This document shows positions 1-38,550 of a stretch of DNA of 38,550 nucleotides, piece after piece. Both the position numbers and the translations under genes were made by a program. The stretch is taken from NCBI RefSeq assembly GCF_900142965.1, contig NZ_FRCQ01000045.1, positions 1 through 38,550 on the forward strand, in the 5' to 3' direction. Source of the DNA: Rhizobacter sp. OV335. Its GTDB lineage: Bacteria; Pseudomonadota; Gammaproteobacteria; Burkholderiales; Burkholderiaceae_C. How positions within the stretch are numbered: the stretch's first letter is position 1; each line of letters begins with the position of its first letter. The notes below the pieces were generated by a model, which saw only the letters and a program-made list of their open reading frames with translations, searched no databases and was not told where the DNA came from.

Positions 1-139
1 CCACTCACTTCGTTCGTTGTGGTCAAACAGTGCCGATGAGTATGTCTACGAAGCGCGCTGGCGCGCGCCATCCCCAAAGCCGATCTTCTCCGTCGCCCCA
101 GAAATCGCCCCCAGCCCAGCCCATCCCCTCACCCGCCGC
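1..139 (+). repeat. Structured palindromic repeat, copy 1 (right half only)
   Basis: This is the right half of the repeat family seen complete at 37894-38141 and 38231-38479; the window edge cuts it. Positions 1-30 are the last 30 nt of the conserved core, identical to 38003-38032. TGCCGATG at 31-38 is the right strand of the inner 8-bp stem. The GCGCGC-TG-GCGCGC hairpin follows at about 53-66, then the right strands of the middle and outer stems. The right end near 139 is set by alignment to copy 2 and is approximate. Its left half must lie just upstream of the window. Confidence 0.75.
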
Positions 140-20370: not shown

Positions 20371-20774
20371 TGGTGGAGCCGGGGGGAATCGAACCCCCGT
20401 CCGAAAGCCTTCTCCGGGTAGATCTACATGTGTAGCTGACTGATTTGTTTTTGAGGACAGTGGTCGCGCAGCAGCACGCTACCCTCATCCCGAGTCACTT
20501 GATTTAGCCCTTGAACCGAGTGACCCGGCTCAGAGCGATTCCATGTGAATGACTTCGCAGCTCTTGGGTTGCCCCTCAAGCCCAGCCCATGGACGTGCTG
20601 TTGCGAAGCCCACCGGGATTAAGCGGCGGGGGGTAGCCCTTGGGCGGGTATTAAGCCGCTTTCAGGAACTTGTTGTCGTTCGCAGTTAAGTGCGATCCAG
20701 TGGATTTACGAGCGAACTGGTGCTCGACATGCCCCACTCCGAATCCGAACCTACGTCGAAACCTGGTCGGCCCC
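20371..20774 (-). ncRNA. ssrA: Transfer-messenger RNA (tmRNA)
   Basis: This RNA rescues stalled ribosomes by trans-translation and tags the stalled peptide for proteolysis. The 5' end GGGGCCGACC pairs with 3' CGGCTCCACCA to form a 7-bp acceptor stem containing the G3-U pair that alanyl-tRNA synthetase requires. The T arm reads GGGGGTTCGATTCCCCC. The tag frame is at 20651-20683 and encodes ANDNKFLKAA followed by TAA. The first six residues fit proteobacterial tags; the Lys before the final AA is unusual. The 404-nt length is normal for a one-piece tmRNA including its CCA. The 5' end lies 13 nt after the gph stop, so its promoter must be inside gph or further upstream. Confidence 0.96.
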
Positions 20775-37512: not shown

Positions 37513-37821
37513 ATGTTCAAGAAGACCATCATCGCCACGCTGCTGGCACTGTTCTCGGCGCTGGCTTTTGCGGCCGGTGTCGACATCAACAAGGCGACGC
37601 AGGCCGAGCTCGAAGCGGTCAAGGGGATCGGTCCGGCGATGGCCACGCGGATGCTGACCGAGCGCAAGAAGGGTGAGTTCAAGGACTGGACCGACGTGAT
37701 GGGTCGCGTGAAGGGCGTCAAGGACCACCAGGCTGCGAAGCTCTCGGACGCTGGGCTGACGGTCAACGGCGGGGCGTACAAGGCCTCCGCTGATGCCAAG
37801 AAGGAACCGGCGAAGAAGTAA
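37513..37821 (+). CDS. comEA: ComEA-family helix-hairpin-helix protein
   Basis: A 102-residue exported DNA-binding protein. Residues 1-21 are a signal peptide (MFKKTIIATLLALFSALAFA). VDINKATQAELEAVKGIGPAMATRMLTERKKGEF is the helix-hairpin-helix pair with the KGIGP hairpin that grips the DNA backbone; a second HhH follows (VMGRVKGVKDHQAAKL). The tail is Lys/Ala-rich (AKKEPAKK). ComEA pulls DNA into the periplasm in natural transformation, so the strain may be competent. ATG at 37513 follows GGAGAGG and yields the proper signal peptide. Confidence 0.93.
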   Translation: MFKKTIIATLLALFSALAFAAGVDINKATQAELEAVKGIGPAMATRMLTERKKGEFKDWTDVMGRVKGVKDHQAAKLSDAGLTVNGGAYKASADAKKEPAKK

Positions 37822-37853
37822 TCCAAGCGCCGGGCCACGAGCCCCGCGACACA

Positions 37854-37882
37854 ACGCCTCGCGCTATCGCGGGGCGTTTTTT
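37854..37882 (+). terminator. Rho-independent terminator after comEA
   Basis: ACGCCTCGCG-CTAT-CGCGGGGCGT forms a 10-bp stem with one T-G pair and runs into a T-tract (37877-37882). It ends 11 nt before the first structured repeat. Confidence 0.93.
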
Positions 37883-37893
37883 CTTGCTGTGCG

Positions 37894-38141
37894 CGCAGGC
37901 TGCGGCAGGGGCCCTGGGCGGGGGACTCATGCCGGGGCGGTCGGCCCGGGGGGCCGACTCCACGAAGAAGCTCGGCTTCGGGGGTGCATCGGCAAACTCC
38001 CTCCACTCACTTCGTTCGTTGTGGTCAAACAGTGCCGATGAGTTGGTCTACGAAGCGCGCTGGCGCGCGCCACCCCCGAAACCGATCTTCTTCGTCGCCC
38101 CAGAAATCGCCCCCCGCCCAGGCCCCCTGCCGCAGCCTGCG
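37894..38141 (+). repeat. Structured palindromic repeat, copy 2 (complete, about 248 bp)
   Basis: A long nested palindrome. Outer arms 37894-37925 and 38110-38141 pair at 30 of 32 positions. A left hairpin TCGGCC-CGGGG-GGCCGA is at 37941-37957. Middle arms 37962-37986 and 38071-38095 match at 23 of 25. The inner 8-bp stem is CATCGGCA (37987-37994) with TGCCGATG (38033-38040), enclosing a 38-nt core (37995-38032). A right hairpin GCGCGC-TG-GCGCGC is at about 38055-38068. No transposase, duplicated target site or protein-coding signal was seen. The open frames through it (protein fragments such as SLHSLRSLWSNS) are products of the core sequence, not genes. Confidence 0.85.
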
Positions 38142-38230
38142 AACCGCTTGTGTTCGTAGCCAGGGTGGCAACCCGGGAATCAACGCCCACTTGTTCGCTT
38201 GTCACCCCCGAAGGAGCGGGGCGGTGCCAC

Positions 38231-38479
38231 AAAGGCGCTGACGGGGAGTCCGTGGAGCGCCAATAGGGACGGGGCGCCGGAGCTGGCTGGTTTCATGGCC
38301 CGCGTGCGCAGCACGCTTCGTGAACTGACTGTCGCCGACTGTTTGACCACAACGAACGAAGTGAGTGACGGGAGTTTCGGCGACGGGCCATGAAGCCAGT
38401 CAGCGGAGGGAAGTCTTCGCCCCGCAAGGGGCGAAGACCGGCCCGTCCGGCGAGCCACGGACTCCCCGTCAGCGCCTTT
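38231..38479 (-). repeat. Structured palindromic repeat, copy 3 (complete, about 249 bp, inverted)
   Basis: The same architecture as copy 2, with the core on the minus strand. Outer arms 38231-38255 and 38455-38479 are perfect 25-bp inverses, with weaker pairing 10 bp further out. The hairpin GTCTTCGCCCC-GCAA-GGGGCGAAGAC (38413-38438) has an 11-bp stem and a GCAA tetraloop. Middle arms 38282-38302 and 38384-38404 pair at 19 of 21, the two exceptions being G-U compatible. The inner stem is GTCGCCGA (38331-38338) with TCGGCGAC (38377-38384), and the core is 38339-38376. The hairpin GCGTGC-GCA-GCACGC is at 38302-38316. The 89 nt between copies 2 and 3 (38142-38230) hold one further CCCCG-AAGGAG-CGGGG hairpin (38206-38221) and no gene. 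Confidence 0.85.
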
Positions 38480-38491
38480 GCAGCGCCGACC

Positions 38492-38550
38492 TCAGCGAAC
38501 ACCCCAGCCAAAGAAGCGCGCCACTTCCTCGCGCCGCTTCAAGGTATCGG
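38492..38550 (-). CDS. Possible 3' end of a minus-strand gene (partial)
   Basis: The minus strand from the window edge reads ...DTLKRREEVARFFGWGVR and a TGA at 38492-38494, immediately after the structured repeat ends. Codon choice fits the rest of the window and a charged helical C-terminus is believable, but 18 codons do not allow a family call. It may equally be noncoding. Confidence 0.3.
   Translation of the reverse strand, partial: DTLKRREEVARFFGWGVR

Follow-up and report, generated by a model that had tools for sequence, protein, structure and literature searches.

Paired palindromic elements conserved as a one-strand fold with DNA-type tips: an old and widespread repeat family

The question raised by this locus is what two large structured repeats, lying side by side in contig NZ_FRCQ01000045.1 of Rhizobacter sp. 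OV335, represent. The first-pass annotation of the window, by which we mean the whole stretch of 38,550 nucleotides that was analysed, had described them as two adjacent repeats around a conserved 38-nt core. Their plan and coordinates (arms, side hairpins, inner stems and core) were recovered from the sequence and its inverted repeats, and the stems reported for the second side hairpin, GCGCGC in one copy and GCGTGC/GCACGC in the other, were both read in the sequence. The two cores are inverted copies of each other over 40 nt at 95% identity, with the reported 36 of 38 positions identical across the annotated core. The window contains one complete unit made of a type A and a type B half (37894-38479) and one cut A half at its start; three core-like matches occur in it, against none in any of 100 shuffles. 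The features are the following.

1-139, minus strand (folding strand): type A half, cut; core match at 2-29, model R1 match at 1-100 with 75.3 bits; arm end placed by eye
37894-38141, minus strand (folding strand by the wobble and loop tests): type A half, annotated earlier as copy 2; inverted repeats I2 and I4; model R1 at 37954-38102, 137.6 bits
37940-37958, minus strand: side hairpin 1 of A, from the sequence; its loop in this copy is not of the GNA type
37987-37994, minus strand: inner stem arm of A, CATCGGCA, pairing with 38033-38040; from the sequence and covarying columns 38-45/85-91
38000-38024, minus strand: core hairpin of A, CC.A.C.A.AC.GA.AC[GAA]GT.GA.GT.G.G.A.GG, with the GAA triloop at 38011-38013; from the sequence and covarying columns 51-75 and 56-70
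38033-38040, minus strand: inner stem arm of A, TGCCGATG, pairing with 37987-37994; from the sequence
38055-38070, minus strand: side hairpin 2 of A, GCGCGC stem with minus-strand loop GCCA; from the sequence and the loop survey
38142-38230, no strand: linker between the A and B halves, containing a REP-like GTAG hairpin; from the sequence
38231-38479, plus strand (folding strand): type B half, annotated earlier as copy 3; inverted repeats I1 and I5; model R1 at 38270-38417 on the minus strand (the orientation of the earlier annotation), 136.6 bits
38302-38316, plus strand: side hairpin 2 of B, GCGTGC-GCA-GCACGC; from the sequence and the loop survey
38331-38338, plus strand: inner stem arm of B, pairing with 38377-38384; from the sequence
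38340-38377, plus strand: core of B, TGTTTGA ... C-GAA-G triloop at 38358-38360 ... GGGAGTTT; from the sequence, inverted copy of the A core (repeat I3)
38413-38438, plus strand: side hairpin 1 of B, GTCTTCGCCCC-GCAA-GGGGCGAAGAC; from the sequence

In half A the outer arms (37894-37939/38096-38141) are 85% and the middle arms (37962-37986/38071-38095) 92% complementary; the corresponding values for half B are 80% (about 38219-38272/38438-38491) and 90% (38282-38302/38384-38404). To the left of the unit lies a gene at 37513-37821, which we take, by reading, to encode a short secreted helix-hairpin-helix (ComEA-like) protein; a terminator-like hairpin that has a T run (37842-37879) lies between this gene and half A. 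By reading, the T run of an intrinsic terminator was absent 3' of the outer stem of either A or B in the window. The linker hairpin (38156-38176) is REP-like with a GTAG foot (GTAG-CCAGGGTGGCAACCCGG) and is similar to the REP given for Pseudomonas mendocina in the consulted part of PMC2817692, so that REPs of the RAYT type appear to be present as well.

The arrangement of the two halves proved to be general. Of the 71 pairs of neighbouring model hits no more than 700 bp apart, 70 are turned towards each other in the orientation of the model, and their folding strands therefore diverge. Compact relatives of the element gave the same picture, as 26 loci carried two matches and 23 of the 24 pairs within 450 bp were arranged in this way, the exception being L342. 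In genome G806 a unit with defined ends and inverted termini was found at nine of ten loci, measuring 525-599 bp and carrying a hairpin ACTTTTCTTTG...CAAAGAAAAGT close to each end, while terminal inverted repeats in Rhizobacter are seen only as the palindromic outer arms. What had been described as two adjacent repeats is a single inverted unit, with A and B as its halves.

The annotation had anticipated many further copies of the core. Indeed, ACTTCGTTCGTTGTGGTCAAACA has 59 matches at no more than three mismatches in the 6.9-Mb genome, split 30 to 29 between the strands, and 78 matches were counted in one congener; the reversed core pattern, searched as a control, gave none in the genome. Two types were distinguished among 51 distinct copies, A having the inner stem CATCGGCA or CATCGCCA and B having GTCGCCGA or a near variant. 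Copies within each genome resemble one another, and several contigs of the draft genome terminate in or close to a copy. A degenerate core pattern returned, among the matches listed, records of Rhizobacter, Rubrivivax, Ideonella, Aquincola, Inhella, Piscinibacter and Pelomonas, and an inner-stem check retained 127 of 140 core matches. A set of 103 copies was thinned to 56 and, after removal of four degenerate ones, the remaining 52 diverse copies were aligned without structure (alignment A1) and used to build a covariance model; its 249 hits were reduced to 169 copies by flank, N, duplicate and core filters.

At E <= 0.001 (rough E-values, with 7, 10 or 11 candidates per genome scored, so that these figures are not copy numbers), the model matched in its own family 239 of 399 genomes, from 93 of 141 genera. 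An order-wide sample gave matches in 59 of 300 genomes (8 of them from the own family), representing 35 of 135 genera, and a class-wide sample in 27 of 274 (3 of them from the own family), representing 25 of 222 genera. In most other families of gammaproteobacteria the matches listed are a compact version of about 100-130 nt, often paired. The exact tip TGTYTGAGCGNAGCGAGTT occurred 182 times in 20 of 398 genomes of a phylum sample, all 20 from the same class, and a control pattern had no occurrence among the matches listed in that sample. No description of the element family was found in the literature searched, also with the printed tip forms, a search of partial coverage with few subscription journals.

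The conservation of the fold was then assessed on A1. Arms match within a copy yet differ between copies. RNAalifold placed 31 pairs, 25 of them with both sides changed, and 93.3% of the cells in the proposed structure pair, against 26.6-44.9% when partners are slid; the covariation score was reached by none of 500 shuffles. Since relatedness can mimic covariation, a simplified tree-aware test was applied, in which substitutions were re-dealt on a FastTree tree to give 100 null alignments. Nine of 10,296 column pairs were significant at E <= 0.05 and eight of them fall inside the proposed structure, which bears out the covarying stems across a larger set of copies; the ninth, columns 10-153, is also complementary (CG 34, AT 12, GC 4, GG 2). 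The core had been regarded as an invariant loop, a view that had to be abandoned, as on the folding strand, opposite to the one shown for copy 2, the core itself is a hairpin with regular mismatches, and its columns 51-75 covary without exception in 52 copies (CG 24, GC 24, AT 4).

In distant relatives this hairpin is often exactly GCGNAGC between TGTYTGA and GAGTT. The distant set comprised 124 matches, 117 of them distinct; the search pattern fitted 84 of 100 stretches fetched on model matches and had no match in the other 16, and 116 copies were used for mismatch and helix counts. Their helix GNANC/GNANC forms Watson-Crick pairs in 115, 113, 115 and 111 copies at its four positions, all four pair types occurring at the two positions not fixed by the search pattern. 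A central A lies opposite A in 102 of the 116 copies; the pattern required this A·A, TGTYTGA and GAGTT, with few mismatches allowed in the CGAG motifs, and the constancy of these letters is therefore not independent evidence. The fold is held across genera, and in many gammaproteobacteria selection on one strand maintains its shape.

Which strand folds is revealed by the mismatches, because a one-strand fold tolerates G·T and not A·C in its stems. On the strand opposite to that of the model, the 169 Burkholderiales copies showed 271 G·T against 76 A·C stem mismatches, or 172 against 59 when only distinct contexts were counted, the safer figure as copies are related; the 116 distant copies gave 34 against 13 and, in distinct contexts, 29 against 10. 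The wobble and loop tests agree that the strand originally shown for copy 2 is the non-folding one.

The type of loop was fixed as well. A loop was detected in 139 of 143 distinct tips and was of the GNA or GNNA kind in 121: there were 101 GNA triloops (GCA, GAA and GTA, never GGA), 20 GNNA tetraloops of which 14 were GNYA, 12 other triloops and 6 longer loops, and 130 of the 133 tri- and tetraloop tips were closed by a C-G pair. Side hairpin 2, detected in 160 of the 169 copies, followed the same rule, with C-GNA-G in 110 (C-GCA-G 102, C-GAA-G 6, C-GTA-G 2) and C-GNNA-G in 28 (C-GCCA-G 23, C-GTCA-G 3, C-GCGA-G 1, C-GTGA-G 1); G-TACT-C (6) and G-TACC-C (4) were the main other loops. The rule was not seen in side hairpin 1, where a crude survey that missed 53 of 169 copies found GNA in 7 of 32 distinct triloops and GNNA in 11 of 35 distinct tetraloops.

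The oligonucleotide d(GCGAAGC) and the d(cGNAg) and d(cGNNAg) types are unusually stable DNA hairpins, tandem G·A pairs in the context Y-GA-R are stable, and the loop preferred by RNA is GNRA. A functional likeness in one respect, with no homology claimed, is offered by the virion-RNAP promoters of phage N4, small DNA hairpins structured on one strand: according to the part of PMC4496689 consulted, such a hairpin extrudes at physiological supercoiling only if its closing pair is C:G and its loop has 5'G and 3'A, and the loop on one strand does not behave like that on the other. Unlike the element, the N4 hairpin is a promoter on phage DNA and not a dispersed repeat.

The element sites lie behind gene 3' ends, and none of 127 copies was spanned by a called gene. 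Gene calls and A/B types were obtained with purpose-written scripts. For the 85 copies with both neighbours called, the spacer was convergent in 25, codirectional in 58 and divergent in 2; counted per unit (n=57), the figures were 14, 41 and 2. On a circle the numbers of convergent and divergent spacers are equal, so that chance would seldom give a split of 14 against 2 (two-sided binomial about 0.004). The order of the halves along transcription was mixed in the 41 codirectional units (AB 10, BA 16, other or untyped 15).

Variation in presence among relatives, suggested at the outset as a check, was found. Flank searches for seven units in 11 Rhizobacter genomes showed that some relatives have contiguous empty sites for three of them (for L038 in G203, for L022 in G204 and G206, for L028 in G119 and G203), others having gaps the size of an element. 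A fourth site in G203, orthologous to L020 (L179), has a 92-bp gap that, by reading, is a short leftover of the element in which the A and B outer arms are fused, as after an internal deletion; two further gaps of about 325 bp were seen in the same genome. In a sister genome of G806, three of nine sites were empty, as shown for two by flank matches found in pairs and for one by an uninterrupted match of 65%; where the element is missing there, a terminator-like hairpin with runs of A and T is present. Loss is a possible origin of each empty site taken singly. Target-site duplications were not clear at any junction, although with flanks 65-95% identical short ones could be missed.

The search for a mobilising enzyme centred on RAYT/Y1 transposases. 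A single Y1 transposase gene was present in the genome of strain OV335, and its locus contains no element. Of 30 other element-bearing genomes, 17 had a PF01797 match and 13 had none, present absence being no proof against past Y1 action. Among the 31 Y1 loci examined only L272 had a clear element, about 900 bp away; weak model hits in L258 (E 0.026) and L256 (E 0.41) were discarded as they lie inside a coding gene, and L252 had another weak hit (E 0.073). No link between the element and a RAYT/Y1 mobiliser thus emerged in these genomes. An all-against-all comparison of 507 proteins near copies yielded no shared neighbour gene, the largest groups (22 and 13 loci) being, by reading, ABC-transporter- and sensor-kinase-like.

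Taken together, the 59 copies, the covariation of the fold, the G·T excess, the GNA/GNNA tips, the inverted pairing, the empty sites, the convergent contexts and the defined ends in G806 favour the A-B pair as one non-autonomous, REPIN-like DNA element that probably acts as an extruded or single-stranded hairpin, a reading to which we assign a probability of about 0.58. The family itself is real, old and widespread. Each half is a long imperfect palindrome of which one strand folds into a rod with purine-rich internal loops, closed at the tip by C-GNA-G or C-GNNA-G, with the two folding strands pointing apart. Owing to its GNA-capped tips, the palindrome may be able to extrude when the DNA is negatively supercoiled, or to fold in the single-stranded DNA of replication forks; a putative trans-acting, single-strand-processing enzyme would recognise the conserved unpaired marks and copy the whole unit into spacers behind genes.

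The element shares features with described repeats and differs from them in others. As in REP, REPIN and BIME families, the palindromes are dispersed and intergenic, and the halves are inverted (70 of 71 pairs, and 23 of 24 in distant relatives); a REPIN unit likewise consists of two inverted palindromes (PMC3116915, seen in part), and in the REP/RAYT system one folded DNA strand is the substrate (PMC8266576, likewise in part). REP hairpins carry a 5' foot GT[AG]G, which, in the portion of PMC6006769 consulted, is missing from subclass 2.6 and class 3 REPs; the letters beside the hairpins of our element are instead CGAGNANNGCAG, TGTYTGA and GAGTT, and no GT[AG]G foot was read in the alignment. 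Its halves also differ from REPs in their several internal loops and in their length of about 250 bp, or 105-125 nt in compact relatives. The element works like a REPIN yet, having neither this foot by reading nor a RAYT link, does not qualify as one. With MITEs it shares the non-autonomous, multi-copy nature and, in G806, the defined ends with inverted termini, and it differs from them by the conserved single-strand fold inside; no parent transposon came to light among the 507 proteins near copies, and no target-site duplication was visible, although short ones could be missed at such flank identity. Intergenic dyads of Haemophilus influenzae, thought to be important for gene-locus mobility and mentioned beside a terminator in the part of PMC4144887 consulted, may be an earlier sighting of a family member, being likened by description only.

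Other explanations were weighed against the REPIN-like element. A structured RNA at gene ends, serving as 3'-UTR element, mRNA stabiliser or bidirectional terminator, would account for sites that follow gene 3' ends, for the terminator-like hairpins in the empty sister sites and, as RNA also tolerates G·U, for the strand asymmetry; with the halves inverted, transcription from either side would yield one correctly folding half. We consider it unlikely, because tip tetraloops are mostly GNYA (14 of 20) and thus outside the GNRA type of RNA, the A/B order along transcription is mixed, and no Rfam family matched the element at gathering scores in the window and 15 loci of relatives. Moreover, the half nearest the incoming gene is transcribed in the non-folding sense, and half A in the window already has a terminator-like hairpin ahead of it. 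A lax Rfam scan of 37800-38550 gave seven matches, all below gathering scores and none credible on the element. Of the initial proposal of selection on folded RNA or single-stranded DNA, the folded single strand stands, owing to the tree-aware covariation, the strand-asymmetric mismatches and the fixed loop type, and the RNA alternative is disfavoured; similarly, a regulatory or catalytic RNA loses ground, and the single-strand DNA substrate and the non-autonomous mobile element, offered as options, are favoured jointly.

A static element of chromosome structure (supercoil absorber, gyrase or nucleoid-protein site), spread long ago and now only inherited, would fit the cruciform-prone tips and the preference for convergent over divergent spacers, which BIMEs also show; it is improbable, as presence and absence differ among congeners and copies are alike within each genome, which points to recent amplification. 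Finally, the fold might be under no selection at all, with palindrome correction by template switching matching the arms and imitating covariation. Such a process is expected to produce arms that match within copies despite divergence between them, yet it is blind to strand, at odds with 271 G·T against 76 A·C, and would neither fix G..A at the tip around a free middle base nor leave the regular mismatches of the core hairpin, and we regard it as very improbable. If the DNA-element reading is true, many genomes carry a repeat that works as folded DNA and not RNA, with tips like those known to extrude under supercoiling; the wobble asymmetry combined with GNA/GNNA tips would be a sequence-only test for selection on single-stranded DNA, and the family would point to a missing single-strand-processing enzyme while providing many substrates for finding it.

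A broader proposal is only tentative, namely that these repeats form a class-wide, unnamed family of DNA elements whose folded single strands are moved by an enzyme outside Y1/RAYT, with the tip TGTYTGA-GCGNAGC-GAGTT as an old recognition signal shared by gammaproteobacterial repeats, by stem-flanked copies in Bacteroidota- and Haemophilus-like DNA and by Vibrio filamentous phages, themselves single-stranded DNA, in their intergenic region. The exact tip was located in 87 stretches of viral contigs. Across 80 viral loci, only 3 of 80 tip matches resembled the complete gammaproteobacterial plan, even by a loose standard; perfect stems of at least 5 bp nevertheless flanked the tip in 17 of 37 distinct viral contexts, against a shuffled mean of 2.3 bp, and contexts lacking a stem may reflect chance or something else. 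By reading, L407 resembles Haemophilus DNA and L476 and L438 Bacteroidota DNA, several adjoining a TTTCTTTTG-type hairpin; in L407, which shows a Haemophilus uptake signal, the tip sits within an 11-bp stem. The L475 region is partly common to Vibrio phages, its segment matching 28 phage records, mostly Vibrio phages, over 19-40% of the query among the matches listed, and the filamentous Vibrio phage VAI1 carries TGTTTGAGCGCTAGCGAGTC, a GNNA tip, near an RstR-like repressor gene. Searches by blastn with the A half and segments from L288, L084, L407 and L476 matched no plasmid, and the L410 segment matched no phage.

Some further observations were made along the way. In L475, L442, L436, L448, others and L494, from the Vibrio filamentous-phage intergenic region and similar contigs, a GNA/GNNA tip with TGTTTGA occurs without a flanking P2 stem. 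A second recurrent family (GGTTTGTTTGAGCGAAGCGAGTTAAATAAAT or similar), found in L410, L418, L433, L437 and about 30 similar viral contigs, has the tip without a stem. A separate hairpin type, ACTTTCTTTG...CAAAGAAAGT, lies beside elements in many genomes: it flanks the G806 unit on both sides, is near unit ends in L241 and L293-L301, and also occurs in L235, L236, L231, L407 and L476. Five records of Rhizobacter sp. Root1238 (L090, L104, L106, L128 and L138) show the core and inner stem tandemly repeated in one half, either real or an assembly artefact. Lastly, a xanthine riboswitch (NMT1) match above the gathering score was present in L084 (2374-2428), and a tmRNA gene scoring 179 bits was located at 20371-20774 of the window.
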